Shown here piece by piece: positions 1 to 25,386 of a stretch of 25,801 nt of DNA (positions within the stretch are counted from its first letter, which is position 1; every line of letters starts with the position of its first letter). The translations under genes and the position numbers were made by a program. This DNA comes from a virus. The notes below the pieces were generated by a model. It had not been told where the DNA came from. It was given only the letters and a program-made list of their open reading frames with translations, and did not search any database. The DNA lies in IMG/VR virus record IMGVR_UViG_3300025890_000139, positions 1 through 25,801 of that record. The stretch is one strand, 5' to 3'.

Positions 1-3000
1 CAAATCCAAAATATTCAATCATATCTAATAAGCTATATCTCTCTTTGACTCCACTCATTGACAAGAAACCCGTATTGCCTAGGCCTCCCTTATCTCCGTC
101 TTTTCCAGGATCAAAAATATTTGCTGCAAGCAATGCACCTAAAATTCCAATTGGTACAGATTCTCCAAATCCCTTATAACCTAATCCACCAAGAGTTGTT
201 GCCTCTCCAAAAATAGATTTGCCAGTAAATTGTTCAATTGCATAACTCATTAGTGAGTAAAAAGATAAAAAAGCAACAATGAATTCAAGATTACTGGCGC
301 TAAACTTTGCCTGATCTGCTTCTATTTCTAAAAGACCCTTCGGCACAAAACTTGTTAAATTGTTTGTTATTGATCCGCCAAATGATCCAAATATATCCAA
401 TGTTCCTTTAATTAAATCATATCCAGTATCTAATATTGATTGCATAAATCCACCAAAATCGCCTCCAATTCCAAGATTGTTTTTTACAAAATCCTCATTT
501 TTATCCTCCATTTTTACATCAAATGTTTTTGTTAAGTTGTCCTTGTAAATTCCTGTATCAATAAGTGTAGATGGTGTATTATTAAAATTAGTATCATTAT
601 ATTTATTGTCTATTTTTCCACCTTCTTCATATACTTCAAATACATTGTTTTTAGGAAAATTTAAATCTATTTTAAATTTATGCTCACCAATAAAGTTTTC
701 TATCCAATCAGAAGTCTGCCAATCAACTGAAAATAAATCTACTCCTGGAAGTCCTTGTGATGGATCTAATAGTCTTTGAGGATCATCTTCTGGAAGAAAT
801 TTACCTTTTCCATTATTATTTTTTACAGAAGGCCCTGTTTGGCTAAACATTTGACCAACTGACTTTTTCGCAGATCCAGCCAACCCACCAAGATACTCTC
901 CTAAATCACCAGATACTTTTTTTGCAGGAGACATCATTTTTCCAATACCTGCTGCTGCTTCAGCAGTGTCAACTTCTCCTCCACTTGCAAATTTAATAAC
1001 TGAATTGTATCTATTCGGATCTAAGGATTCTGGATAAGAATTTAATTCACTTAAAAATCCTGCGCCTATAAAATCAACTGTATCCTTTTTAATTATGAAC
1101 TCACCACCTTCTAGCTCTACAGATTTTTTGCCACCTACAATTGCAGGTATGCCACCTTTATCATGAGAAGGCCCTCTTAACATTCCTCCATCTGCATATT
1201 TTTCAACTGAGCCACCTGCACTAAATCTCAAAAGATACTCTGGGCCTATTCCAAATTGCTCAAATGGATTTTTGAACATTAGAATATCGCCAACATTTCT
1301 TAATGCGTTTTCAAAAAACTTTAAGATAACTTCTCCACCAGAAGCAACTCCACTTATTATCTCTTCAAACATTTTAACAAAAACATTAACAGCATCCATA
1401 GTGCCGTTAACAACCTCTTCAAAAAACTTTCCTATTGCATTTATAGGCTCTACCGTACCGCCACCAATTGTTTCTTCAATAAATTTACCAATTGCTCCTA
1501 ATGCATCTGTTGTTGATGTCCCAAAAATCTGATTAAACAATCTAGAAAGGACTTGACCTGCATCAAGAAGGCCCCCGCCTTTAAATATGTTTAGAAAGAA
1601 TTCACTAAGTGCTTCTAGCGGTTTCAATAAGTTAATTTCTGAAATTATATTTTCAAAAAACTTAACAAGGCCCTGCACTGCGTCAAGAAGATCCCCACCT
1701 TTAAAAATATTAGTAAAAAAGTCGGCAAGTCCTTGGAACGAACTTAATAAGTCTCCACCCTTAAATATATTTTTGAAAAAATCAGTCAACCCTTGCACTG
1801 ATGATAAAAGGCCTCCACCTTCAAATATATTTTTAAAGAATTCTGTTAATCCTCCAAAAGCATCCAATAAATCGCCACCTTTTAATATATTCATGAAAAA
1901 TTCACCTAGACCACTAACAGAGTCCAGTAAATCACTGCCATCAAATATGTTTGTAAAAAATTCTCCTAGTCCTCCTATTGCATCTACTAATCCAGTACCA
2001 TCAAATATGTTTGTAAAAAATTCTGCTAATCCCTCCAACGCCTTGATTGTATCATCACCAAAAATTGCATCCCAAAGAGATTCTAAGAATTTAACAATAG
2101 TTATCCCTAGTTTTTCAATAAAGGAAAACAAGGCTTTAAGAAATTTTTCAACTTGCATGAAAACAGTTTCAAGTGCCCCAAGAAGAGCATCAAATATTGC
2201 CTGGGCAAGACCTTCTATTAGTTTAATAAAATCTAAATTTGCACCAAAGGAAGGCATTGAAGCATCATCCCCACCTCTTGCTTCTTCTGGAACCTCTGCT
2301 CCTGAGACATCTCCAATCGTGGGCTGAGTTCTTAAAAGGGCATTTAATCTACCCTCTTCTTTTGCAACAACCATTTCTGACTCTGCAAGTGCCGTAACTC
2401 CCTCTATTCTTTCTCCTGTTGCTCCTATCCCAAATAGATTTTTTAAATCTTCTGTAACACTGGATGAATTAATAGCATCACCCATTGCCTGATTAAACCG
2501 ATCAAATTCCATTCCTCTGAATTCCGTGTAGGCCTGTTCCACCTTATCTAGGCTTCCAATAGAACCAAATTCTGAGAATTCCTTAAAAGATATATCTTCT
2601 TCTGTCTGAGCTAGTTTATACCCAATATAAGTAAGTAAATCATTATAAGAAAGAATCCCATCACGGAACTTTTGAACAACATCAGCAATGTTTCCACCAA
2701 GATCTGAACCTGCAACCTCAAGCTCAAATATACCCTTTTTCAAGGACTCTGTAATCTCTGCACCAAGCTTATCTGCCATTGTGCTTTGCAGCGATTCTAG
2801 ATCTTCAATTACTTGTAGATATATCTGTTGATATGCATTTGATGTTTTCAAAACATCTTGGGCTTGCTGTAAATAAGTTTTTGCAAAATTCTGAAATTCT
2901 GTAACAGCTTCATCATCTGCACCAAAAGAGGTTGCTGCTAGATATAATTCATTATATTTATCCGCTGCCAATTCAAGCTTTGTTCCTGGAGCAGAAATAT

Positions 3001-6000
3001 TTAATGCAGAATTCATAATGTCAAAAATGACATCATTGATATCTTCTAAAGTATCTGCAAGTCCGCCAATTGATGTATTTATATCACTGATAATATCTCT
3101 TTCTTGTCTTAATAAATTTAATGATTTGTATTTATCAGTAGTAGTTACCCCGAAAAAATTTAAAAACTCTTTAAAAAAATTATCAAAAACATCACCGATT
3201 GCTCCCAAAATTGAGCTAAACAATCCAACAACAATTTGAAGAAATGCAGATAAGTAAATCAAAATCGGTTGCATCCCCTCAATCAGTCTTGCAAAAGGCT
3301 GAATAATTTTAGTGAAGGCCCTCATGATTTCACGCAATGACCCACCAATCATTTCCATCAATGGCTTCAATGGGGCCAACATATCTACAATGGCCTCAAA
3401 GAAAATAGCCAATCCTTCTGCAACCTCATCAAATAAGACATAGAATATGTCCAAAAATCTTTGCAAGGCCTGCTGAAATCTTTCGTTCTGAAGAAGGCTT
3501 TTTGAAAGGATCTGAGTAACACCTGCAACAGGGTTTGTTGTAAGCATTACAATATCTTCAAGGAATCCTTTAAAGGCTCCACTTTTCCCAAGAGCATCCG
3601 AAAAAACTGCACCAATTCCTGCAGCCGTCTGGCCCATCATTCCATCACCCAAAAGTCCGGTTTGAGGCCCCATTCGCATTTCTGCTTCTGCGTAGGCCTC
3701 TTTCCAATCCCTAGCACTATCTCTATAAGTTTCCGTTACTTTTTTAATTGCATAGGCCGCTTCTTCTTCAGCAGTCATTCTTCTGGAAGTTACAGACTCA
3801 ATTGCATCAATTTCTTTTTGACTTAGTGTTTCAATTTCTTTCCATGAACTTCCAGCATACCCAATGGCTTCATTTGTTTTTGTAAACTCTTTTTCTACTT
3901 TCTTTGATTCCTTTGTAACCTCTTCTATTGCAGGGGCCATTTTAACAAAGCCTTCTGTGACCTCTTCTACTGCCTTGGTAGTATCCCCTTTTTGCAACAT
4001 CTTTTTTGGGTCACCGATAACTGTTCCATCAGCCCTAAAGGTAGGAACTCCTCTTCTTGCATAATCTTCTGCAACTGCATCTGAAAACTTTTTTGCTTCT
4101 TTTAACTTCCCTGCTGTTCTCAGATTGTTAGCAATTCTCATTGCTTCTTGAGGAGTAAGCTCTGTTCCAGGAAGAACACCACCAGGAGCAAATCGCATTG
4201 TATTCAATGCATTAAACATTGGAATACCATACTTTGCTACAGCATCCTTATTGATTACATATTCTCCACCTTCTAATTCTATGGCCTGTCCATAAAGCAT
4301 TCCCTTGATTCCGCCACTTGCATGAGAAGGGCCAGTAAGCATCCCACCTTTTTTTCTTTGCAACGCATACTCCATCTCCTGTGGAGCAAATTTACTCTGT
4401 CCTAACAATCTTGTTGCAAGGTTATTATTCAGTGGTGTTGTCTTGGACTTCTCTTCAAATAACTCCATTCTATTCTTAATAATATTCATCGCAGTTTCAT
4501 CCATGTCTCGCTGAACTGCTGGATTGATCTGCAACCCTGTACCACCACGGCCCATATATAAATCTGAGACCTTCTTACCAGAAGCAATGGTCGCATCAAT
4601 AAAGGCCTCTTGCCTGTCTACAAAATCTTTTGTTGGATCTTTTACCAAACCAAGCCCAATACCCAATTGCTGAAAGAGAGACAATCCACCTTTCATTTGT
4701 TGGGCCTGTGTTTTGGCTTGATCCAATAGCCTTGCTCTTGCTAATTCATCTTCTGTCTTTCTTAATTCATTCTGCTTTCTAATTTCTTCAGTAATGTCTG
4801 TTTCCAGATCAAGAAGTGATTTCTTAGTTTCTAGAATTGCAAGTTCTTGACGGTATTGTTCATCTGTAAGGCCTTCTCTTTCTCTTCTTTGGTCAAGAAT
4901 TACCTTCTCTCTTGCAATAATTGTTTCATTTAAGGACTTCTGTTTTTCTAATTCGCTTGTTCCTTTAATTAAGTGGTCAAGTTCTAATTGCAAATCAGCA
5001 ACTCGTTCTGTAGCAGACACTAAATCTCTTTGCTTCCCTTGAAGTTCAAGATACAGTTTCTTTTCTTGATTTACTTTCTCCAATGAGATTGCCAAATCCT
5101 TTTGAAGAGCAAGTTCTTCCATCAAAGCATTTTTAGCCTGACCAGTAATATTTAGATCCTTCAGTTTTTGCTCATAATTCAAAAGACGGATTCTATACTC
5201 TTCTTCAATAATAGACTCTTGAACTTTCAATAATGGAGTATTCTTCTTTAACCCATCCATTTCTGCTTTTGCAGAAAATTCTGTTAATTCAAGTTGTTCT
5301 CTTTGAGCCTTTAGTGATCTTTCTTCCGTTTTGATTTTTTGATTTTGTTGAATGATGTATTGGTTAATTGCCTTCTCTAAATCAATCAATTGCTCTCTAA
5401 GAATAGAATCCATCTCAGCTTGCATAATCTTGCCAAGAGTATCCTGCTCCTTAAAGGCTGCCTGTGTTGAAGGATCACCCAATATTGAAGTAATTACATC
5501 CTTGTATTCTTGAGTTAATTGTCTAATTCCATTTTCGTCTGGCATTCCAAATAAGGAAACTCGTTTACCAGAACGCAGACCTTCTTCTATGGCCTGGTTA
5601 AAACTTGATGCTTGTTTTACAAGAACCTTTGGATCAAATAAAGGAATCCCTTCTGGTAATTTGCTCTTGAAAAGAGAAGCGGTTTTTGATGCTACATTTT
5701 CTGTAAATCTAGTTAGTGCAGACTGAATACCTCCAAGTCCAGAATCAAAAGGATTAGTAAATCCTTGAATAAACTCATTTGATAACGCTTCACCCACCAA
5801 CTCCATTTGTCTCGCAAATGCAGCCTGTTTTGCATAAACTTCTTTCAACAACAAGGCCTGTGGGTCAACTTCTTTTGCATCTTTTTTGACTTCCTCCATT
5901 GCCTTCTTTTCCTGCTCTCTCAACTTAGCAGTTCTTTCTGTCATATCCATCTGAAGCTTTTCCAGCTTTGCCGCTCTCTCCGTTAAAGCAGCCAACTCTT

Positions 6001-7729
6001 GCTTGTCACTTCCAGGCAATACTAAATCAAGACCAAAAATTTTATATTCTTGGATAAAACCAAGAAGGTCATCTGCATATTCACGCCATGTACCTCTTGC
6101 ATTCATCACACTTTGAGAAAGTTCGTTTATTTTTCTATTGATAACACTTAACTGAACTTCCAACTCATTTGATGCAAGTTTTGTGTTTGCTAGCTCTTCT
6201 CTATACCCATTTAAGCGATCCATCCCTGTCTTTGTAGAATCACTCAACTCTTTAATCACCTCATCAAGAGGCCGCAATTGCTCTGCAGTTGTTTTTATTT
6301 CAAGATTTAAATCAATAAGTCTATATGCTAATAACCCTAAAATTGTAACTAATCCTGCAACCGCCCCAGCGCTTAATCCAATTACTGCTCCAAAAGAACT
6401 AAATAATGCTGTAAGAGATGAAACAATAATCATCCCGCCAAGAACGCCCACTACTGCTACAATACCTACTGCGAACTTCTCAAAGTTCAATGCAACATTT
6501 TCTACAATTTTACCAATAAAACTAAACTGATCCTTTGCATTCTTAATCATATTTGCCAAGGACATGATCTTGTTTGCAATCAATTGATTGGCATTTCCAA
6601 ACTCTTCGGCTCCTTCAATCCCTGCATAAATTGCTGTTCTTACATTCTCCATTGCTTGGGAAATGGTGGCCTTAATATTATCAAACTTGGCCTGAGTCTC
6701 TGCTGATGCCTTTTCAAATGCTGCAACCATCACTTCAGTTGTAATCATTCCCTCTGCAGCAAACCTACGCATTGTTCCAGTTGTGATCCCAATGGCCTTT
6801 GCTAATCCTTTTGCTGCCTCTGGAGCCAATTCCAAAACAGAACGAAGTTCATCACCCTGTAACCTGCCAGATGCAAAGGCCTGTGATAACTGAACAATCG
6901 CATTTCTGGCCTCTTCTGCTGTTGCTCCAGATAACTGAAATCCTTGGTTAATCGTCCGAACTACTCTTGCAAGGGCCTCTTGATCCTTTTGAAGTCTTTG
7001 TGAATTTCTTCCAATCCTTGAATAAAGATTTGCAACAGCAGCAAGATTCGATCTTGTCTCCATTGCAATTTGCACAACAGTATCAAAATTCTCTCTAAGT
7101 TTAACAACTTCTGGATTTACTGTGCCCAGTCTATTTTTCATCAAAGTTAGCTGATCTGTGATTCTCACAAAGTGACTAACCAAATCTATAGATATTAAAG
7201 AGAGAAATCCTCCAACTAATGAACCTACCCAATACGAATTTTCCTTTAATACTTTTGTAAGCCTCTCAAAAGCCCCTCCTGTTTTCTTTGCTGCATCTGC
7301 GGCACCACCAGAAGCTCCTTTTAAATCCTTTAACTGTTGTTTTAATGCAGCTACATCTCCTGCAAGTTTTCTGTTCTGTTTTTGAAGAGTTGCATATTTA
7401 CTGCTTATATTTGAGATATTAGATGAAAATTTATTGAACTTTGAGTTAATGTCGGAAATGTCCTTACCAAGACCCTTAAAGCTATTACCCATAGCTACAT
7501 TGGCTTTTGCCATATATTTCATAATCCGATGAACGCCTTTCATTGTGCGCTCAACTGATCTCATGGTTTTTTCTATTCTTGCAAATGTACCCTCCATCCT
7601 TTTTAAGGATGAAGAAGTTTCTGAAGAAGTGGATCGAATTGATGTTAAATTCCTGTCAACTTCAGTAAGCTTTTTATTAGCATCACTGGCATCAACCTGA
7701 ATTTGCATTATGGCATTATATGTAGACAT
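1..7729 (-). CDS. Tail tape measure protein (partial, C-terminus outside window)
   Basis: One uninterrupted frame runs from ATG 7729 to the window edge (2576 codons, no stop), with AAGGAG seven bases upstream of the start. Tape measure proteins set tail length and are packed inside the tail tube. Residues about 230-345 match the conserved tape-measure N-terminal domain (RIG..S..LQ, QLSQAFASGRLQGDELRSVL, AAEGMITTEV). Residues about 413-475 are strongly hydrophobic (possible membrane-inserting segment). Residues about 590-1000 are Glu/Lys/Gln-rich coiled coil. Two copies of a GPSH-x2-GGI ... ELEGGE[YF][VI]I module lie near residues 1130-1168 and 2182-2221. Residues about 1897-2058 hold eight tandem 20-residue repeats, with degenerate copies after them. 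The gene directly follows the chaperone pair, as is standard. Plus-strand frames over this gene are shadows. Confidence 0.95.
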   Translation of the reverse strand, partial: MSTYNAIMQIQVDASDANKKLTEVDRNLTSIRSTSSETSSSLKRMEGTFARIEKTMRSVERTMKGVHRIMKYMAKANVAMGNSFKGLGKDISDINSKFNKFSSNISNISSKYATLQKQNRKLAGDVAALKQQLKDLKGASGGAADAAKKTGGAFERLTKVLKENSYWVGSLVGGFLSLISIDLVSHFVRITDQLTLMKNRLGTVNPEVVKLRENFDTVVQIAMETRSNLAAVANLYSRIGRNSQRLQKDQEALARVVRTINQGFQLSGATAEEARNAIVQLSQAFASGRLQGDELRSVLELAPEAAKGLAKAIGITTGTMRRFAAEGMITTEVMVAAFEKASAETQAKFDNIKATISQAMENVRTAIYAGIEGAEEFGNANQLIANKIMSLANMIKNAKDQFSFIGKIVENVALNFEKFAVGIVAVVGVLGGMIIVSSLTALFSSFGAVIGLSAGAVAGLVTILGLLAYRLIDLNLEIKTTAEQLRPLDEVIKELSDSTKTGMDRLNGYREELANTKLASNELEVQLSVINRKINELSQSVMNARGTWREYADDLLGFIQEYKIFGLDLVLPGSDKQELAALTERAAKLEKLQMDMTERTAKLREQEKKAMEEVKKDAKEVDPQALLLKEVYAKQAAFARQMELVGEALSNEFIQGFTNPFDSGLGGIQSALTRFTENVASKTASLFKSKLPEGIPLFDPKVLVKQASSFNQAIEEGLRSGKRVSLFGMPDENGIRQLTQEYKDVITSILGDPSTQAAFKEQDTLGKIMQAEMDSILREQLIDLEKAINQYIIQQNQKIKTEERSLKAQREQLELTEFSAKAEMDGLKKNTPLLKVQESIIEEEYRIRLLNYEQKLKDLNITGQAKNALMEELALQKDLAISLEKVNQEKKLYLELQGKQRDLVSATERVADLQLELDHLIKGTSELEKQKSLNETIIAREKVILDQRREREGLTDEQYRQELAILETKKSLLDLETDITEEIRKQNELRKTEDELARARLLDQAKTQAQQMKGGLSLFQQLGIGLGLVKDPTKDFVDRQEAFIDATIASGKKVSDLYMGRGGTGLQINPAVQRDMDETAMNIIKNRMELFEEKSKTTPLNNNLATRLLGQSKFAPQEMEYALQRKKGGMLTGPSHASGGIKGMLYGQAIELEGGEYVINKDAVAKYGIPMFNALNTMRFAPGGVLPGTELTPQEAMRIANNLRTAGKLKEAKKFSDAVAEDYARRGVPTFRADGTVIGDPKKMLQKGDTTKAVEEVTEGFVKMAPAIEEVTKESKKVEKEFTKTNEAIGYAGSSWKEIETLSQKEIDAIESVTSRRMTAEEEAAYAIKKVTETYRDSARDWKEAYAEAEMRMGPQTGLLGDGMMGQTAAGIGAVFSDALGKSGAFKGFLEDIVMLTTNPVAGVTQILSKSLLQNERFQQALQRFLDIFYVLFDEVAEGLAIFFEAIVDMLAPLKPLMEMIGGSLREIMRAFTKIIQPFARLIEGMQPILIYLSAFLQIVVGLFSSILGAIGDVFDNFFKEFLNFFGVTTTDKYKSLNLLRQERDIISDINTSIGGLADTLEDINDVIFDIMNSALNISAPGTKLELAADKYNELYLAATSFGADDEAVTEFQNFAKTYLQQAQDVLKTSNAYQQIYLQVIEDLESLQSTMADKLGAEITESLKKGIFELEVAGSDLGGNIADVVQKFRDGILSYNDLLTYIGYKLAQTEEDISFKEFSEFGSIGSLDKVEQAYTEFRGMEFDRFNQAMGDAINSSSVTEDLKNLFGIGATGERIEGVTALAESEMVVAKEEGRLNALLRTQPTIGDVSGAEVPEEARGGDDASMPSFGANLDFIKLIEGLAQAIFDALLGALETVFMQVEKFLKALFSFIEKLGITIVKFLESLWDAIFGDDTIKALEGLAEFFTNIFDGTGLVDAIGGLGEFFTNIFDGSDLLDSVSGLGEFFMNILKGGDLLDAFGGLTEFFKNIFEGGGLLSSVQGLTDFFKNIFKGGDLLSSFQGLADFFTNIFKGGDLLDAVQGLVKFFENIISEINLLKPLEALSEFFLNIFKGGGLLDAGQVLSRLFNQIFGTSTTDALGAIGKFIEETIGGGTVEPINAIGKFFEEVVNGTMDAVNVFVKMFEEIISGVASGGEVILKFFENALRNVGDILMFKNPFEQFGIGPEYLLRFSAGGSVEKYADGGMLRGPSHDKGGIPAIVGGKKSVELEGGEFIIKKDTVDFIGAGFLSELNSYPESLDPNRYNSVIKFASGGEVDTAEAAAGIGKMMSPAKKVSGDLGEYLGGLAGSAKKSVGQMFSQTGPSVKNNNGKGKFLPEDDPQRLLDPSQGLPGVDLFSVDWQTSDWIENFIGEHKFKIDLNFPKNNVFEVYEEGGKIDNKYNDTNFNNTPSTLIDTGIYKDNLTKTFDVKMEDKNEDFVKNNLGIGGDFGGFMQSILDTGYDLIKGTLDIFGSFGGSITNNLTSFVPKGLLEIEADQAKFSASNLEFIVAFLSFYSLMSYAIEQFTGKSIFGEATTLGGLGYKGFGESVPIGILGALLAANIFDPGKDGDKGGLGNTGFLSMSGVKERYSLLDMIEYFGF
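1067..1183 (-). repeat. GPSH/ELEGGE module, second (C-terminal) copy in the tape measure
   Basis: Encodes MLRGPSHDKGGIPAIV, then SVELEGGEFIIKKDTV. It aligns residue for residue with the copy at 4225-4341. Both are preceded by a GG and followed by an [RK]FA-x-GG motif. Similar His-Gly-Gly plus Glu-Gly-Gly-Glu motifs recur in phage tape measure and other virion proteins; their function is not known to me. Confidence 0.8.
1556..2040 (-). repeat. Eight tandem 60-bp (20-residue) repeats inside the tape measure gene
   Basis: The translated minus strand repeats every 20 residues with the pattern G-L-x-E-F-F-x-N-I-F-x-G-G-x-L-L-D-S. Examples are GLAEFFTNIFDGTGLVDAI, GLGEFFTNIFDGSDLLDSVS, GLTEFFKNIFEGGGLLSSVQ and GLADFFTNIFKGGDLLDAVQ. 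An FF (once FF-E-N-I-I) pair sits at a fixed position in each unit. At DNA level the copies have drifted but stay at 60-base spacing. Looser copies continue to about 1300 (GKFIEE, GKFFEE, VKMFEE). Confidence 0.9.
4225..4341 (-). repeat. GPSH/ELEGGE module, first copy in the tape measure
   Basis: Encodes MLTGPSHASGGIKGML, then AIELEGGEYVINKDAV, followed by NTMRFAPGG. It is paralogous to the copy at 1067-1183, about 3.16 kb away in the same reading frame, indicating an internal duplication or the recurrence of one functional module. Confidence 0.8.
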
Positions 7730-14830: not shown

Positions 14831-15367
14831 CTACATGGAATTTCTAATAAACTCATCATCTTTAAATATTCTAGAAAAGGTAGCACCTTTCTGATGTTGA
14901 TATTTACCTTGATAAGGATTTACACATTCAGAATCCATCTTCATATAAATCAATTGACATATTCTCATGCCCTTATGAAGACGAATGCTTCTATGTGATT
15001 GATTTTGAAGTTCAAGAGTAATCTGACCTTTAAAACCAGCATCAACAAATCCAGCATTCTGAACTTGAATACCGACTCTACCTACAGAGGATCTCCCTGC
15101 AACAAAGGCCGCATACCCATTAGGAACTTCAATCTCTTCTTGAGTAGAGGCCAAGAGAAAATCATTTGGTTTCATCACCAACTCTCTTTCCTTCCACTCA
15201 ATAAAGTCCAATTCATCCATCACATCCACCACCTCATCCTTAAAAAGAGATAATGTGCAAAATGAATCAGAGAGAGTAAGATCCACACTGGAAGGCCCAA
15301 TGTGGACACCCTCTGGAATGTATCCTTGGTATTGCAACTTAATCAATTCTAAATCGCTGCAAACCAT
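14831..15367 (-). CDS. dcd: dCTP deaminase / dUTPase-family enzyme (178 aa)
   Basis: Dcd-family enzymes deaminate dCTP to dUTP, some also hydrolysing dUTP to dUMP, feeding dTTP synthesis. Visible motifs are GPSSVDLTL (24-32), GRSSVGR (91-97), and the active-site block DAGFKGQITLEL (109-120) whose Glu (about 119) corresponds to the catalytic Glu of Dcd. C-terminal PYQGKYQHQKGATFSR (151-166) is the nucleotide-closing tail. Length 178 is close to the usual 170-200. The start overlaps the scaffold stop by one base (TAATG). A metabolic gene between scaffold and capsid genes is unusual. Whether it is mono- or bifunctional cannot be told by eye. Confidence 0.88.
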   Translation of the reverse strand: MVCSDLELIKLQYQGYIPEGVHIGPSSVDLTLSDSFCTLSLFKDEVVDVMDELDFIEWKERELVMKPNDFLLASTQEEIEVPNGYAAFVAGRSSVGRVGIQVQNAGFVDAGFKGQITLELQNQSHRSIRLHKGMRICQLIYMKMDSECVNPYQGKYQHQKGATFSRIFKDDEFIRNSM

Positions 15368-19187: not shown

Positions 19188-20420
19188 TTAGATTCCATGA
19201 ATATCAACTATACCTGGTTCCTGTTTATTTACAGGATATAAGTACTCAACTAAATACCCCATACTATCTGTAATGTGCGAAAGGTCATTATCTCCACCTT
19301 TTTCTGGAAGGTTTGTACCTTTCTTATAGGAGTGTCTTTCTAATGCATGAATTGAGCGTTTACAATCCTTATGTATCAGCAGTCTTCTTGTTCCATCAGC
19401 AGTACACAAAACAGAGTTTACTGCATTGATTCTATCTCTGATTAAAGGGTGTTTTCTGCGAAATTTACACTTAAATCCATAACTTTGCAAAATAGATAAG
19501 TCCGTCCTTCCGCCAGCAGAAGTTCTTGTTTGCACACAGGCCGGATCTGGATAAACAGTAATTTGTGCAGAAGGATATCTACATAAAACTTCTTCAGCCA
19601 TCTCATCAGTATTAGAACCAAATATTTCAATTTCATCCACAAGAAATAAAGTTCCGTCATTTTCATCCATTTGAAAAACTGTTGCAGTCATCGGATCAAT
19701 ATTAAAATCCATTCCTATTAAAACAGGTTCACCTTCATCATAAGGACGATTAACAACAGATTCTTCATAATCAAAACCATAGTATACTAAACCAGTATAA
19801 GTTACAAAACGTGCTTCATATTCTTGTTCAAATGTTCTTGCATCTAAATTTCTTCTTGCTGCTTCTACTTCTTCTGGAGGTACATTTCCACCTTCTAATG
19901 TAGTGTATTGCCAAGAGCCCCAATCCTCTTCCTCATCATCCTGTCCTGCAATCCAGAGGTCGTAAAACCAGTTTCTTCCAGAAGGAGATGAAATAAATAA
20001 GGCCCCACCTTGTTTATCAGAGAGAGTAGGACGCAAAACTTCAGTCCACACCCTTTCATCCAAATAGGCCGCCTCATCCAACACCAAGTAATCCAAACCA
20101 ATTCCACGAAGACTATCTGGGTTGTTGGCCCCTTTCAAAGATATTACAGAACCATTCACCAAATTGGCCTGTAGTGCTACCTCATGAAAGGATTTGGCCC
20201 ATCCAAACTTTTTAAGTTTCTCTTTGAGGTATGACCACATGATATTCTTTGCAGCAGAATATGTTGTAGTGACGTACCATACCTGAGAATAAGGGAAACG
20301 GGCCACTTTTGCCATCAAGGACATCGAAAGGAAACTTTTTCCAAAGCGCCTTCCTGCTGCCACAACTTTAAAACGGGCCTTGGAATCAGATATCTCTCTT
20401 TGTGCCGCAGTAAGTGGCAT
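19188..20420 (-). CDS. terL: Terminase large subunit (410 aa)
   Basis: Packaging ATPase and headful/cutting nuclease. In numbering from ATG 20420: Walker A AGRRFGKS (22-29), Walker B YLVLDE (111-116), coupling motif SSPSG (144-148). The RNase H-like nuclease Asp residues lie in IGMDFNIDP (D238), VYPDPA (D292) and SHITDSMGY (D385). All key residues are present, so it looks functional. I choose ATG 20420, which overlaps the small subunit stop as TGATG with GGAGG just before it, over the ATG at 20432. The rather short ATPase linker is within family range. Confidence 0.96.
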   Translation of the reverse strand: MPLTAAQREISDSKARFKVVAAGRRFGKSFLSMSLMAKVARFPYSQVWYVTTTYSAAKNIMWSYLKEKLKKFGWAKSFHEVALQANLVNGSVISLKGANNPDSLRGIGLDYLVLDEAAYLDERVWTEVLRPTLSDKQGGALFISSPSGRNWFYDLWIAGQDDEEEDWGSWQYTTLEGGNVPPEEVEAARRNLDARTFEQEYEARFVTYTGLVYYGFDYEESVVNRPYDEGEPVLIGMDFNIDPMTATVFQMDENDGTLFLVDEIEIFGSNTDEMAEEVLCRYPSAQITVYPDPACVQTRTSAGGRTDLSILQSYGFKCKFRRKHPLIRDRINAVNSVLCTADGTRRLLIHKDCKRSIHALERHSYKKGTNLPEKGGDNDLSHITDSMGYLVEYLYPVNKQEPGIVDIHGI

Positions 20421-20920
20421 CAATCCTCCCAAGGAAGAACTGTGATCTCACTTCCATGAGATTCATCCATGCCATAGGCCTTTCTTTTTGCAATATACCC
20501 CACAGATAAGGTCTCCATTGCAATCTTGCAACACTTCAAATACTGAAATACCAACTCCGCATCATCCTTATCCATAAGCAATTCATTTGTATTCGGATCA
20601 CGATTCTTCAAGAGACGAGCTTGGAAGTTCAGAACCATTGTTCTCAACCTGTCTGCATCTCCAATGAATCTCTCCGATTCCTCAACGGATCTATTTATCT
20701 TGTCAGCAATAACTGTTTGTTTTTCAACTTCAGCCATTTTGCTGATGATGTCATTTCTTTTTGATCCTCTCTCCCAACCTCTCTGTTTGGCCTGATATCT
20801 TACAGTATTTGGATGAACCTTGAATTCTTCTGCAATCTCTTCTGCACGATCCCCCGCTTCCCAGCGGGATTTCATCTTTCCAAGGTTCACATTATCTAGA
20901 TTAGTATTTGCTCCTGACAA
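20420..20920 (-). CDS. terS: Terminase small subunit (166 aa, TTG start)
   Basis: Recognises the packaging site and regulates the large subunit. From the chosen start, residues about 16-49 (KSRWEAGDRAEEIAEEF, VHPNTVRYQAKQRGW) form a helix-turn-helix. The rest is helical, with coiled segments likely to form the ring. The TTG at 20920 is chosen because it lies immediately after the ParB-like gene stop (TAAT-TTG) and has GGAGG six bases upstream. An ATG at 20962 would overlap the previous gene by 41 bases without a better ribosome site. It couples directly into the large subunit. Confidence 0.85.
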   Translation of the reverse strand: MSGANTNLDNVNLGKMKSRWEAGDRAEEIAEEFKVHPNTVRYQAKQRGWERGSKRNDIISKMAEVEKQTVIADKINRSVEESERFIGDADRLRTMVLNFQARLLKNRDPNTNELLMDKDDAELVFQYLKCCKIAMETLSVGYIAKRKAYGMDESHGSEITVLPWED

Positions 20921-20931
20921 ATTACTCCTCC
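20921..20931 (-). promoter_or_regulatory. Ribosome-binding site deciding the TTG start of the small terminase
   Basis: Minus strand GGAGGAG (20931-20925) covers the last codons of the ParB-like gene. It is followed by its TAA, one T, then TTG at 20920, an ideal spacing for a coupled start. Confidence 0.7.
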
Positions 20932-21833
20932 GCTGATTGTTCTTCCTTCTTACACATTTCAATTACTTTTTCTGCAGCATGATCACCTAGAATTTGTTTT
21001 ACTAGAGTGGCCTCATCCCCAGTAAAGGTAAGATAGAGTCTAAAAATATCATGATCCTTACGAAGGGCCTGACGCTCCTCTGCAGTTTTGGCCTCTGCCA
21101 ATTGTTTTTCACGTTCCCGTTGACGCTCCACTGCTGCAATCGAAGAGGCCGCAGCAACCGTGCCTCCACCACCGGACTGAATCTCTCTAGTCTCCGTTGT
21201 TGTCTCCAACTCACCATCATCCTCAACATCCCTGTCATTGGATGGCTCCCAGGCCTCAGTCCAATCCTCTCCTGCCAACGCATCGGGGGCCGCAATATCC
21301 TCCAAGAGTTTATTCAATTCTGCATCATCCAACATCAAGGAGTCCTGCGCCCAATCCAAGGCCCCTACTTTCTCCAGATCCCTTAGTAATTCTGCAGTAA
21401 GGTCAATATCTTCTGAACCTCTGGCCCGATTATGTCGAAGAGTTGCAATCTTGGCCTGTTCCTCTGTCATCGGAGTAATCACCACTGGGATCTCATCAAA
21501 CCCCAAGGAATGAGCCGCTCTCCAACGGTGTTCCCCATCAACAATCTTTACTCTTCCATCCTCTGTCTTAATACAAACCACAGGCTGAGTAAATCCATCC
21601 TCGGACATGGACTTCAATAAAAGCTCAAAGTCATGGTCACTTTGTCTATTTGGATTCCACTCATTTGGATGAATATCGTTTACATGAATATATTCAATAT
21701 TCAGAGTTTCCAGGGCCTTGTTCTTCTTATCAACGGCCTTCTTACCCTTCTTTTTAACCTTATCTGTAACACGCATTTGTGTTTCTGCAGGAGTTGTATT
21801 TACCGCTTTTTGTTCTGCTGGTTTTTCTGGCAT
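20922..21833 (-). CDS. ParB/IbrB-like domain protein (303 aa)
   Basis: Residues about 44-135 form a ParB/sulfiredoxin-fold domain: LNIEYIHVNDIHPNEWNPN, a central DGEHRWRAAH (99-108) with the G-x-H-R signature of the nucleotide/phosphate-binding loop, and TLRHNRARGS (131-140). The N-terminus is Lys-rich (KVKKKGKKAVDKKNK). The remainder has an acidic linker, a Gly stretch (SGGGG) and a charged helix (VERQREREKQLAEAKTAEER). It is adjacent to a PAPS-reductase-family gene, the same pairing as IbrA/IbrB, and such pairs are common next to phage terminases. The exact function of the pair is not established. A chromosome-partition role is unlikely, as there is no ParA or C-terminal ParB domain. Confidence 0.85.
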   Translation of the reverse strand: MPEKPAEQKAVNTTPAETQMRVTDKVKKKGKKAVDKKNKALETLNIEYIHVNDIHPNEWNPNRQSDHDFELLLKSMSEDGFTQPVVCIKTEDGRVKIVDGEHRWRAAHSLGFDEIPVVITPMTEEQAKIATLRHNRARGSEDIDLTAELLRDLEKVGALDWAQDSLMLDDAELNKLLEDIAAPDALAGEDWTEAWEPSNDRDVEDDGELETTTETREIQSGGGGTVAAASSIAAVERQREREKQLAEAKTAEERQALRKDHDIFRLYLTFTGDEATLVKQILGDHAAEKVIEMCKKEEQSAEE

Positions 21834-21853
21834 CTATTTACCCTATTCATAAA

Positions 21854-22993
21854 TTAAAAAGTTGGTTTACCGTTCCACTTCCCACTACCAGGCCTAAAGA
21901 ACTCAGGCTCAATCATAGGTAAAAAGGAGGCCTTTGTTGACCAAGGGTCTCCATTATACAATGACATTGCCATCTTTTTCCATGAAGCAATATTACCTGT
22001 ACAACTCATACATGGGTGTACTTCTGGAAATTCAGTTGTGGAGTGTTTTGCGTGTCTCCTCATATAGATCTCTTTTGTTTTTAAGGCCCTTTCACGAATC
22101 CACTCAGGGGCCTCATCAATACAAGTTCTATGAAAACACTGCTCCCATGTTTCACCATACTTTCTTGTAGGTGTCAAGGCATGCATCCCGAACTTCACTC
22201 CAGTTCTTATACCACTCAATCGTTCACAGGCCCTGTCAAACCACTTAGGCCATGCAGAGGAGGCCATTCTCAAGGCCTCAATCCCATAAGGATTGGAAGT
22301 AGGAGGGCCAATTCTCATAATAGGATTTGGTATCCTGTTTCGTAACATCACATCGTAGGCACGATTGTAATCCAAGTTAAACTCTTTTATTAACTTCCAT
22401 ACATCCTTGGATGTCCAATCATAAATTGGACGGATATTTGCAACCTTATATCTATTCGGTTTTGTGATGTATCCACCAGAAGTAAATAGTCCATAGAGTC
22501 GATGTCTGGACTCATCTGTCCTCAGTCCTATCGCAGCATATAACTTCTGATCTGTCTGCAATGGAAATCGGTCAGGTGTAGTCATGGCTTCAATGTGTTG
22601 TTCATCAATATGAGTGGCCCAACTAGGGGGTTCTCTCATCCAATCACTAGGACTCAAAGTCTTATCCATAATCCAAAAGTAAGGATTCTGGCGATCATAC
22701 ACATTTATCACAGGCTGATGTGCAACCAACCAAGTCATATTCACTTCTGGCCTATTGGCAACTCTCTCAGCAAACTCATAGGTTCCAGGGAACATCAACT
22801 CCTCATCCCGAAGCACAACATCCACAGGCAGTCTTCCTGTCATCTGGGCAGCCATTATGCAGATCTCCAACAATACAGTGGAGTCCTTACCAGTTGAAAA
22901 GGATACTACAATTCTATGTCCTTCTTCATAGAGGCAAGCAACTCTGGAAATGGCTTCATCTAAAACTGTATTTCCTGTCTTTTTTCTAGGCAT
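21854..22993 (-). CDS. IbrA-like PP-loop / PAPS reductase-family protein (379 aa)
   Basis: The PP-loop SFSTGKDST (31-39) binds ATP in N-type ATP pyrophosphatases and PAPS reductases. GLRTDESRHR (156-165) and RPIYDWTSKDVWKLI (188-202) are the other conserved blocks of this group, shared with IbrA and DndC relatives. The catalytic C-terminal ECG-H motif of true CysH is absent, so sulfate assimilation is unlikely. The C-terminal half instead has four Cys in pairs (C286, C291, C328, C331, the last two as CMSC), which could hold an Fe-S or Zn centre. The gene is followed after 20 bases by the ParB-like gene and preceded after 7 by a methyltransferase. Nucleic acid modification or a regulatory role is possible; not proven. 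Confidence 0.88.
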   Translation of the reverse strand: MPRKKTGNTVLDEAISRVACLYEEGHRIVVSFSTGKDSTVLLEICIMAAQMTGRLPVDVVLRDEELMFPGTYEFAERVANRPEVNMTWLVAHQPVINVYDRQNPYFWIMDKTLSPSDWMREPPSWATHIDEQHIEAMTTPDRFPLQTDQKLYAAIGLRTDESRHRLYGLFTSGGYITKPNRYKVANIRPIYDWTSKDVWKLIKEFNLDYNRAYDVMLRNRIPNPIMRIGPPTSNPYGIEALRMASSAWPKWFDRACERLSGIRTGVKFGMHALTPTRKYGETWEQCFHRTCIDEAPEWIRERALKTKEIYMRRHAKHSTTEFPEVHPCMSCTGNIASWKKMAMSLYNGDPWSTKASFLPMIEPEFFRPGSGKWNGKPTF

Positions 22994-23000
22994 CTCTTTC

Positions 23001-23801
23001 TCAGGTGGTAGTTTTGGTGGCTAGGCATAGAAAAAAAGAACAACTTGGTGATCTAGTGCCGCCTTTCATGCTATCTCTCAGCGTGGCTTCATCAAGGTCA
23101 TTCTCAATTCTATTCCGGTGGTACAGAATGGACTCCATATTATCAGAGGAGGTCATCGGTTCGGACTCATCTTTTTCTTGGGCTAGGGAAAAAGGCAGTA
23201 TTCTAACATCGGTACTATTGGACAGGTCTCTGAGCCAGGTATAAAGCACATACTCTTCAATCATAGTATAGGAGTAGCCTTTTTTGTCAGTTACAATATT
23301 GTGCAAACTCGTCTCTCTATCTTCTGGCGCAACATTCCCATAAGTCATCAAGCACATGGTTCCGCCTTTTTTGACCTTCTTCCACAAATTATGGAAAGCC
23401 AGGCTCATCTCTGGTCTAGTCAAACAGTTCAATCCAGCATAAAGAGAAAGCACAGCGTCAAAGGTGCCACCGATTTTGTCATGGTCATCCAAAAAGCTCA
23501 TACGATTCAGTCTCTCTCGGAAGCTAGGCCACTTGGACTTCATCTTATCCAGCATCTCCTTGGAGAAGTCATAACCTCTATACTCAGTGATCTCCCAGTT
23601 GGGCCGATAACAGTGATCCAATAGGAGTCCGGTTCCGCATCCAGCATCCAGCACGGCCCCTTGAAGCAATCCCTCATTTTCCAGGAAGTCAAAAAGCACA
23701 ATATCTTCAGCAAGCATGATCGGAGACTTGGTCTCTTCATCATAAAACTCTGCAATCTCGGCATAATATTCCTGTGCAGTCAGTGTTCTCATTGGCCCCA
23801 T
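23001..23801 (-). CDS. Class I SAM-dependent methyltransferase (266 aa)
   Basis: Motif I VLDAGCGTG (50-58), an acidic strand GYDFS (76-80), FDAVLSLYAGLNCL (114-127) and KKGGTMCLMTYG (144-155) give a complete Rossmann methyltransferase core. There is no DPPY/NPPY or PC motif for known DNA base methylases, so the substrate (protein, small molecule or nucleic acid) cannot be named. It is the first gene of the leftward operon. Start uncertain: ATG 23801 has no clear ribosome site, and ATG 23792 (MRTLTAQEYY) is preceded by GATGGGG and may be the true start. Confidence 0.85.
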   Translation of the reverse strand: MGPMRTLTAQEYYAEIAEFYDEETKSPIMLAEDIVLFDFLENEGLLQGAVLDAGCGTGLLLDHCYRPNWEITEYRGYDFSKEMLDKMKSKWPSFRERLNRMSFLDDHDKIGGTFDAVLSLYAGLNCLTRPEMSLAFHNLWKKVKKGGTMCLMTYGNVAPEDRETSLHNIVTDKKGYSYTMIEEYVLYTWLRDLSNSTDVRILPFSLAQEKDESEPMTSSDNMESILYHRNRIENDLDEATLRDSMKGGTRSPSCSFFLCLATKTTT

Positions 23802-24046
23802 CCATTTAATTTAGATTTAAAAGTGTTTTTAAGCTAAAGCATTTGTAGAATTAGTTCAAGCCTCTTGATTCAAGCAGTCACGGTTACGCCTTTTTTGCAG
23901 GCTTGCGTCATGTAACATTTAGTACACCTTTTTTAGCGTTTTTCTGGCCTATCTCTGTGCTTCTTTTTCGGCTCAACCCCAATTTTCGCTGCTTATTTTT
24001 TAAGCTAAGCCCTTTTTTGCGAAAAAAACCTACAAATTCCTACCAA

Positions 24047-24068
24047 CTGTGCTTCAAAAAGAGCACAG
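24047..24068. other. 7-bp perfect hairpin
   Basis: CTGTGCT (24047-24053) and AGCACAG (24062-24068) are perfect inverted copies around an 8-base loop. The following bases are not a clean T-run, so a terminator role is uncertain. Confidence 0.45.
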
Positions 24069-24110
24069 CCCTGCATTTTTCGCTTCACCATATCTCTTCT
24101 TTCATTAGCC

Positions 24111-24138
24111 TAGCCGTGCCAATAGGCAAAGGCGGCTA
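24111..24138. other. Imperfect stem-loop
   Basis: TAGCCG (24111-24116) pairs with CGGCTA (24133-24138). Inside, TGCC (24117-24120) pairs with GGCA (24125-24128) around AATA. AAGG is left as a bulge. Confidence 0.4.
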
Positions 24139-24152
24139 AGACTTCGGCTTTT

Positions 24153-24229
24153 CATTGCTTTTCAAAACCTGTGCTTTGTCCTCACTCACAAGTGAGTGGT
24201 TCCATTGCTTATCAAAACCCATGCTTTGT
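24153..24229. repeat. 27-bp direct repeats flanking a 16-bp palindrome (operator-like)
   Basis: Copies at 24153-24179 and 24203-24229 share 24 of 27 bases (CATTGCTT-x-TCAAAACC-xx-TGCTTTGT). Between them CACTCAC-AA-GTGAGTG (24183-24198) is a perfect inverted repeat. The repeats are 50 bases apart, start to start. Confidence 0.75.
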
Positions 24230-24303
24230 ATTTTTTGGGGGGGCTATTTTGAAATGTGCTGGCTATGTGATGGGAGGGGGAGCCGCTATTCTGAGAAATG
24301 CAA

Positions 24304-24315
24304 GGGGTATACCCC
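24304..24315. repeat. Perfect 12-bp palindrome GGGGTATACCCC
   Basis: Fully self-complementary sequence in the intergenic region, next to the AT-rich repeat pair. Could be a dimeric protein-binding site. Confidence 0.6.
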
Positions 24316-24328
24316 GTACACCCTCCAT

Positions 24329-24371
24329 GTTAAAATAAATAGTAAAATAAAAAGTTAAAATAAATAGTAAA
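24329..24371. repeat. 18-bp AT-rich direct repeat pair
   Basis: GTTAAAATAAATAGTAAA occurs exactly at 24329-24346 and 24354-24371, spaced 25 bases start to start, within a 60-base stretch of almost pure A/T. It could be iterons with a DNA-unwinding element, or an UP-element-like promoter region. Confidence 0.7.
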
Positions 24372-24424
24372 TAAATTAAAAAAACAGTTGTACTTTTTTC
24401 TGAAAATCTGATACCCTGAATGCA

Positions 24425-24438
24425 GTTCATGGATGAAC
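24425..24438. promoter_or_regulatory. Operator-like inverted repeat upstream of the rightward genes
   Basis: GTTCAT-GG-ATGAAC is a perfect 6-bp inverted repeat, 76 bases before the first rightward start. A weak TTGTAC (24388-24393) lies upstream without a good -10, so the promoter is not fixed. Confidence 0.4.
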
Positions 24439-24513
24439 AGCAAACAAACACATCGGACGTAAACCGCAACGTAGCGGAGGTGCAAAACCCCTGCGCAAAT
24501 TCTAAGGTGCAAA

Positions 24514-24779: not shown

Positions 24780-24794
24780 GGCCCCTATGGGGCC
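24780..24794 (+). other. Intercistronic GGCCCC-TAT-GGGGCC hairpin
   Basis: A 6-bp GC stem with a 3-base loop, preceded by TAATATTAAC and followed by AAAGGA and the next ATG 16 bases later. No T-run follows. It shares its design and flanks with 25187-25202. Confidence 0.75.
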
Positions 24795-24810
24795 ATATAA
24801 AGGATTAGAT

Positions 24811-25179
24811 ATGAAAATAAATAGCAAATCTCTAAAAACAGCAGCAACAAATAGCTATTTAGTTTGGGTTTCCAATTACTACAGGGAACGTAGTAATGGA
24901 AAAGAAGTGAGAATAATTTTGTTTGGTAATGTTTTTCATGTTTACTTTGTCGAATACGACAAGGAAAACAAAAACTTTTCAATCGAATTGCAACATCATT
25001 TTTCTAAGGAATACGGGAAAAAAGTTGAACCTGTAAAGGGTTCAACGCAATTCTTAATTCAAGAATATGAATACGGGAAAAATTTAGTTCACCAATTGAA
25101 TGGTGGATATTCTGAAAAAGATTTTAATTTTGAAAAATCAAACTTAGATGAACTTATAGAAACTGCATTAACAATTTAA
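24811..25179 (+). CDS. Unknown small protein, second rightward gene (122 aa)
   Basis: Start chosen at ATG 24811, which has AAAGGA six bases upstream. The in-frame ATG at 24787 lies inside the hairpin and lacks a ribosome site. The protein (MKINSKSLKTAATNSYLVWV ... NYYRERSNGKEVRIILFGNV ... SIELQHHFSKEYGKKVEPV) is soluble and mixed alpha/beta, with Lys and Asn in abundance. No family recognised. It ends in TAA at 25179, followed again by TAATATTAAC-like sequence and the GGCCCC hairpin. Confidence 0.75.
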   Translation: MKINSKSLKTAATNSYLVWVSNYYRERSNGKEVRIILFGNVFHVYFVEYDKENKNFSIELQHHFSKEYGKKVEPVKGSTQFLIQEYEYGKNLVHQLNGGYSEKDFNFEKSNLDELIETALTI

Positions 25180-25186
25180 TATTAAC

Positions 25187-25202
25187 GGCCCCATTTGGGG
25201 CC
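25187..25202 (+). other. Intercistronic GGCCCC-ATTT-GGGGCC hairpin
   Basis: Same design as 24780-24794: TAATATTAAC before, GC stem with a 4-base loop, then GAAAGGA and ATG 13 bases later. Confidence 0.75.
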
Positions 25203-25215
25203 ATGAAAGGAAAAT

Positions 25216-25386
25216 ATGAAAGAAACAATATTAGCGTATATCACTTTCTTAGTTGTAGCGGTTTTCGTTTCAAATTGTGGAATATTTCCAGAGGAAGAAA
25301 CTTATAGAATTGATAAATCAATAAATGATAATACTACAACTGAAAACCAACAAATCGAATATTGGAGAACATATGCAGCAAATTAA
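25216..25386 (+). CDS. Small lipoprotein (56 aa)
   Basis: ATG 25216 follows AAAGGAAAAT. The N-terminus MKETILAYITFLVVAVFVSN then Cys is a lipoprotein signal: short charge, hydrophobic stretch, lipobox V-S-N-C. Asn at -1 is atypical for enterobacteria but known in spirochaete lipoproteins. The mature part (about 36 residues: CGIFPEEETYRIDKSIND and so on) is short and polar. Phage lipoproteins of this size may block receptors against superinfection or act in lysis as Rz1-like outer spanins. Neither is proven here. The end overlaps the next gene's start by 14 bases. Confidence 0.72.
   Translation: MKETILAYITFLVVAVFVSNCGIFPEEETYRIDKSINDNTTTENQQIEYWRTYAAN

Follow-up and report, generated by a model that had tools for sequence, protein, structure and literature searches.

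A 25.8-kb linear virus record from IMG/VR (IMGVR_UViG_3300025890_000139, positions 1 to 25,801; hereafter the window) carries three closely spaced genes, encoding a methyltransferase (MT), a PP-loop ATPase (PP) and a ParB-like protein, that lead directly into the genes for the small and large terminase subunits (TerS and TerL). From 5′ to 3′ on the coding strand, the cassette and its immediate context comprise:

23802-24513, minus strand: non-coding region of ~700 nucleotides (nt) between divergent genes, 5′ of MT; no supported open reading frame (ORF)
23001-23801, minus strand: MT, class I S-adenosylmethionine (SAM)-dependent methyltransferase, 266 amino acids (aa), first gene of the cassette; PF13649, E 3.5e-11
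21854-22993, minus strand: PP, PP-loop ATPase of the 3′-phosphoadenosine-5′-phosphosulfate (PAPS)-reductase clade, 379 aa; PF01507, E 5.5e-15; phrog_2302, E 6e-50
20922-21833, minus strand: ParB/Srx-fold NTPase-like protein, 303 aa; ParB_N PF02195, E 5.1e-16
20420-20920, minus strand: TerS, small terminase subunit (context, outside the cassette proper); weak PHROG TerS matches
19188-20432, minus strand: TerL, large terminase subunit (context); Terminase_6N, E 1.5e-14; phrog_2, E 1.4e-48

The linkage is operon-like. As a first-pass annotation of the window had described, 7 nt separate MT from PP and 20 nt separate PP from the ParB-like gene; the third gap that it gave, 1 nt between the ParB-like stop codon and TerS, applies provided that TerS starts at TTG 20920, a likely start judging from the GGAGGAG Shine-Dalgarno sequence that precedes it. 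The TerS and TerL ORFs overlap, and the series runs on into the head genes; farther downstream are genes for a DUF4055 portal, a scaffold, a P22-type coat and a TMP_3 tape-measure protein.

Identity of the cassette products

All three cassette products exceed Pfam cut-offs. MT matches Methyltransf_25 (PF13649) at 44.1 bits, against a cut-off of 27, and contains motif I as LDxGCGTG. The DNA-methylase motif [DNS]PP[YWFC] is absent from MT, and a role as a conventional N6/N4 or C5 DNA methylase was rejected for want of a catalytic motif. The structure predicted for MT (predicted local distance difference test score, pLDDT, 89.9) is closest to TM1389, C-methyltransferases, the amino-sugar N-methyltransferases TylM1 and CalS10, GNMT and the tRNA enzyme CmoM, with Z-scores of ~20 for TylM1, CalS10 and CmoM (19.9 for the last). 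This fold suggests an enzyme resembling small-molecule or N-methyltransferases, but sequence identity to TylM1, CalS10 and CmoM is 18-20% or less and the substrate cannot be read from the likeness.

PP scores 56.3 bits against PF01507 (cut-off 22.5) and has an SxGKDS loop and a GxRxxES..R motif. Among 75 homologues the invariant positions are S33, G35, K36, D37, S38, D63, E65, the RxxES..R motif, D192, D197, Y213, D349 and six arginines. The best match to its predicted structure (pLDDT 91.5) is the PAPS domain of FAD synthase (Z 17), and further matches include adenosine 5′-phosphosulfate (APS)/PAPS reductase, CysD, TilS, GMP synthetase, LarE, NcsA and TtuA. With the curated NCBIfam model of CysH, PP reaches 40.3 bits, below the cut-off of 154.

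The ParB-like protein scores 59 bits against PF02195 (cut-off 26.3), carries Box I (GFTQP) and Box II (GEHRWRA), and aligns with Noc (7nfu, E 9e-13) in the NTP-binding region, where the two share GxxQP and GE.RWRA. Its score against TIGR00180, the canonical ParB/Spo0J partition family, is 51.7 bits, below the cut-off of 58.45, and Pfam called no canonical ParB helix-turn-helix (HTH) in it. Inteins prefer conserved functional sites, and in relative L007 an intein-like insert of ~270 aa interrupts the ParB-like protein (2648-4369) exactly at Box I (GF^TQP), so that Box I is probably functional. Among the loci scanned, L007 alone had such an insert in a phage IbrB-like protein; intein-like inserts of ~349 aa were also seen at Walker A of TerL in L007 (4906-7188) and L008 (4292-6574).

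Conservation and genomic position of the trio

Eight close IMG/VR relatives were obtained by PP similarity. The order MT-PP-ParB-TerS-TerL was found in every related contig that covers the region (L002, L003, L004, L007, L008, L009 and also L101); L005 and L006 begin inside PP. Within the close group, PP and the ParB-like protein are at least 79% identical and MT 39-71%, and MT and TerS diverge faster than PP and the ParB-like protein. Ratios of non-synonymous to synonymous change (pN/pS) of 0.06-0.22 indicate strong purifying selection on PP and the ParB-like gene, and the range for MT is 0.36-0.59. When the window was compared with L009 and L002, all genes were under purifying selection (MT, 0.36-0.37; PP, 0.06-0.09; ParB-like, 0.09-0.11; TerL, 0.11-0.13).

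Position bias was assessed with a generic Pfam methyltransferase model on 50 phage records selected solely for PP, with uniform placement as the expectation. The model gave 13 matches, 11 of them within 1 kb of PP where 1.2 were expected (P = 1e-10); with near-identical records collapsed, 8 of 10 matches fell within this distance (P = 3e-8). Within the PP clade to which the window belongs, a survey that started from PP found MT in 56 of 62 loci, or in 28 of 34 clusters when loci were grouped at 80% identity, and on these two results chance adjacency of MT was rejected. Starting from MT, PP was present, mostly adjacent, in 74 of 78 further loci that encode MT relatives, a set that is the best 80 of 99 and so not a random sample; three of the four misses run off a contig edge and one (L162) is genuine. 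On the PP tree, the presence of MT changes 10 times, versus ~40 with shuffled labels, although the PP-first count is to be preferred to this test because some of the tips came from the MT-first search. In 37 of 83 pairs, the MT and PP ORFs share 4 or 1 nt. By the PP-first, MT-first and position counts alike, the three genes that the first-pass annotation had grouped are conserved together rather than rarely so, and they constitute a genuine conserved unit.

The trio extends to contigs of metagenome-assembled genomes labelled Bacteroidetes, Kapaibacterium, Ignavibacteria, Gemmatimonadetes and proteobacterium (L179-L183), in which a 52%-identical PP stands with MT and a ParB-like gene, and in three of which TerL is present. 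A first scan of genome contigs with the window PP as the sole query had given no match. When cultured phages were searched by tblastn, the queries being the MT of the window, one MT from L111 and one PP from L104, no phage carrying the trio was found; no MT was returned, and the matches were confined to PP relatives of 24-31% identity.

PP-loop and ParB-fold pairs had been said to recur next to terminases; this holds strictly for direction, but in many loci the pair has no terminase close by. Downstream of PP, a TerL occurs at no more than 3.5 kb in 66 of 118 loci (41/81 clusters at 70%), against 0 of 92 for the 3.5 kb upstream, and in the window's PP clade it lies within 5.5 kb downstream in 45/60 and upstream in 0/38; the TerL profiles were built partly from downstream neighbours, so that an unrelated upstream TerL could escape detection. 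In Mycobacterium phage Philly the order is ParB-hypothetical-PP-ParB-terminase, and in CHPC1230, Gaia and Mwe-JY13 the PP-ParB pair is distant from the annotated terminase. Diverse TerL families follow the cassette. HTVC111P and DSL-LC06, the closest TerL relatives inspected, whose TerL proteins are 47-49% identical to that of the window, have no annotated cassette before TerL, and the cassette thus behaves as optional.

Other enzymes recur beside the PP-ParB pair, including phrog_854-type glycosyltransferases (47 loci), DPPW N6/N4-type methylases (38), cupins (31), GNATs (21) and a second PP-loop protein. Glycosyltransferase matches lay within 1.7 kb of PP in 15 of 16 cases (P = 2e-15) and GNAT matches within 1 kb in 6 of 10 (P = 1e-5). 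An undescribed domain of ~95 aa (PHxYTxR ... YWxMG ... INR) occurs beside PP in many phages (73 ORFs, including L031:3477-3959) and is fused to the N-terminus of MT in 39 ORFs; it has no Pfam or PHROG match and is absent from the window. MT is missing in six loci of the window clade. In one of these (L314), the genes before PP encode a glycosyltransferase-like protein, a different methyltransferase and a pyruvoyl-dependent arginine decarboxylase (PF01862, E 3e-27), of which 50 records held no other example. In a second (L303), a radical-SAM gene resembling lysine 2,3-aminomutase stands after the ParB-like gene, together with three glycosyltransferase-like genes, and a third (L321) has a DPPW methylase. 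PP and the ParB-like protein form a core, with the same slot filled or supplemented by differing enzymes.

Additional neighbours were seen in individual loci. L264, a 65%-identical relative in which MT is displaced to beside the ParB-like gene, has a C5-cytosine DNA methylase directly after PP (1101-1925; PF00145, E 1.5e-36). A SAM-synthetase-like gene, recognized by eye from its translation, follows soon after the ParB-like gene in L161 (9480-10382), and in L088 a gene resembling the thymidylate synthase ThyX (6003-6896) is close to PP. The ParB encoded by gene 104 of Mycobacterium phage Gaia (L018:5308-6207) bears the annotation ectoine-synthase/ParB multidomain protein; the fold of ectoine synthase is a cupin, and the annotation matches the separate cupin genes frequent beside PP elsewhere.

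A proposed DNA hypermodification pathway and its alternatives

We propose, with a probability of roughly 55%, that the trio acts after replication as a DNA hypermodification cassette and is co-expressed with the packaging genes. Conservation of the trio, the downstream bias of TerL and the clustering of accessory transferases at PP count in favour. The ParB/Srx NTPase would bind phage DNA and/or provide nucleotide-dependent control. With ATP, PP would adenylate an oxygen of the DNA, more likely that of a base carbonyl than of a phosphate, or an oxygen on an already attached group. It would then join a nucleophile, for which an amine or amino acid is the most plausible candidate, in the manner of TilS and AMP-forming amide ligases. 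MT would N- or O-methylate the appended group as a cap; in other phages a glycosyl, acetyl or different group would take the place of this cap or be added to it. The product would shield virion DNA from host nucleases. The first-pass annotation had suggested a DNA-marking module, and the wider set of neighbours does resemble a nucleic-acid modification pathway; DNA as the substrate, the amine chemistry, the order of steps and the protective role are what we infer.

The structural matches of PP to adenylating enzymes were counted for the proposal. Among them is TilS (Z 10.8-12.3), to whose chemistry adenylation of a base oxygen followed by amine attack would correspond, although TilS acts on tRNA and PAPS-clade folds are nearer to PP (Z 13-17). 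The resemblance of MT to amino-sugar, glycine and CmoM methyltransferases was likewise counted for it. Amine supply in L314 and L303, together with alternative N-methyl-, N-acetyl- and glycosyltransferases, fits an appended amine or sugar-like group. Thymidylate-synthase-type genes (PF00303) were found in 0 of 40 related records, a set to which the window does not belong; this argues for modification after replication, and whole-nucleotide replacement through hydroxymethyl pyrimidines was rejected on the same result.

A comparable SAM-enzyme/ligase logic exists in Synechococcus phage S-B43, in which a SAM-derived carboxymethyl handle is amidated by an AMP-forming ligase to give 5-carboxymethylcytosine-glycine (5cxmC-glycine), often with ParBc neighbours (PMC12783734). 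The likeness to this CmoA/CmoX/CmoY set is one of outline and not of homology, as the S-B43 ligase is of the asparagine-synthetase type and its carboxymethyltransferase is a C5 DNA methylase, whereas the window cassette has no C5 methylase and its MT had no CmoA (carboxy-SAM synthase) model among its NCBIfam matches at E 0.01. According to one survey, phage ParB folds frequently occur as fusions to predicted DNA methylases (PMC12704722).

Several points weigh against hypermodification. Generic class I methyltransferase matches leave the substrate of MT unfixed. TilS and CmoM act on tRNA, and many PP-ParB pairs are distant from terminases. The arginine decarboxylase and the lysine 2,3-aminomutase occur in one locus each, and the sequenced part of the window contains no glycosyltransferase or amine-making gene. 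A broader form of the proposal is tentative and, in our estimate, rather unlikely: that the trio represents a widespread undescribed class of phage DNA hypermodification. A PP-loop ligase of the PAPS clade would here attach an amine or amino acid, such as agmatine or beta-lysine, to a DNA base in the manner of lysidine; the decorating slot would be exchangeable, accepting methyl, glycosyl or acetyl, and the ParB/Srx NTPase would serve as the targeting subunit.

The strongest alternative substrate to DNA is tRNA. PP might act on tRNA or a small molecule in a TilS-like or CmoM-pathway-like manner, with MT completing a wobble base, and so aid translation or evade anticodon nucleases. The folds of PP (TilS, NcsA, TtuA) and of MT (CmoM) are consistent with this, and homologues of MT match phrog_4752, named as a tRNA methyltransferase. 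However, the cassette precedes the terminase, genes of DNA-methylase type (DPPW, C5) are among its neighbours, the window contains no tRNA genes, and ParB folds are not known as RNA modifiers. We consider this alternative unlikely.

A role in transcription is suggested by IbrA/IbrB, which in E. coli and many phages are likewise adjacent PP-loop and ParB-fold genes with the same PP motifs. The earlier designation of PP as IbrA-like is borne out by homology to PhiR5_2 IbrA (26% identity over 94% of its length, E 4e-16); it is qualified by the lack of a DUF3440 match in the window PP, for which Pfam at E 0.01 gave PAPS_reduct alone, and by the record of IbrA/IbrB as co-activators of prophage gene expression. 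The cassette further differs in its dedicated upstream MT, a C-terminal cysteine set and its terminase-side position. Since it stands at the start of the late operon, PP and the ParB-like protein might regulate late genes as co-activators, with MT as an add-on. This seems improbable, as every catalytic motif of PP is invariant, transferases recur beside PP with strong position bias, and no DNA-binding HTH was called in the ParB-like protein.

Sulfur chemistry, to which the first-pass annotation had drawn attention, received little encouragement. PP would here act like DndC or SspD, placing sulfur in the backbone or a base with the help of a host desulfurase, and MT would methylate the sulfur. 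The Dnd/Ssp enzymes DndC, SspD and BrxP share the PAPS-clade PP-loop fold, their profiles match the window PP weakly, and Dnd has a ParB-fold partner in DndB. Four cysteines of PP (C286, C291, C328 and C331) may bind a metal or hold an Fe-S centre, and DndC is described with a three-Cys 4Fe-4S centre and a Cys dyad (PMC10853773). Yet this set is specific to the window's PP clade, two of the four residues are absent in ~30% of that clade, a second MT-bearing clade lacks them, and no cysteine is invariant across the 75 homologues. The curated DndC model (TIGR03183) left the window PP unmatched and matched 1 of 15 clade members, at E 1.7e-4, and the cut-off was not reached. The DndD model found nothing in the 50 related records, which may be fragments; AAA_21 (PF13304), a poor proxy for DndD, also gave 0/50. 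Dnd-type phosphorothioation is disfavoured, and sulfur modification of DNA in general is a doubtful account of the trio.

Finally, the suggestion that the module labels the pac/cos region for terminase recognition of phage DNA draws on the downstream position of TerL and the 1-nt spacing to TerS in the window, but is very improbable given the many PP-ParB pairs away from terminases, the diversity of TerL families and the TerL relatives HTVC111P and DSL-LC06, which show no annotated cassette there, and nothing else was found to support a packaging-site function.

PP-loop/ParB (IbrA/IbrB) pairs are already known in phages, where they are annotated as co-activators (PMC4490671; PMC8813620), and PP alone has been annotated as sulfur metabolism (PMC10434257). 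The literature searched contained no account of the trio or its dedicated MT, of the exchangeable slot, of the bias towards the terminase side or of the ~95-aa domain; an earlier mention of PAPS-ParB pairs is possible. IbrA/IbrB-like pairs, present in hundreds of phage genomes, still carry annotations of sulfur metabolism or transcription co-activation. The survey recasts them as the likely centre of a modular pathway whose partners can be named and which recurs ahead of the terminase. If the hypermodification proposal is correct, many uncultured phages would carry an unknown DNA modification, ParB-fold proteins would have a function beyond partition, and modification signals may already exist in long-read metagenomes.

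Upstream region and other features of the window

The non-coding region 5′ of MT (23802-24513) is a candidate promoter region for the cassette operon and contains the palindrome GGTATACCCC at 24299-24320. Alignment of six upstream regions revealed weak conservation among relatives and no long conserved stretch 5′ of MT. A conserved element upstream of MT was rejected on this alignment and on an Rfam search, which gave only a sub-threshold hairpin elsewhere. That region (24785-25230, plus strand) contains two GGCCCC...GGGGCC hairpins that immediately precede the ribosome-binding sites belonging to small ORFs on the plus strand; one of the hairpins is the sub-threshold match, to Histone3.

At the left end of the record, the 2576-aa TMP_3 tape-measure ORF (2-7729, minus strand) is open, indicating that the record is a fragment. 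Between the scaffold and P22-type coat genes lies a gene of dCTP-deaminase/dUTPase fold (14831-15367, minus strand), which may encode either an enzyme acting on nucleotides or a trimeric protein of the head.

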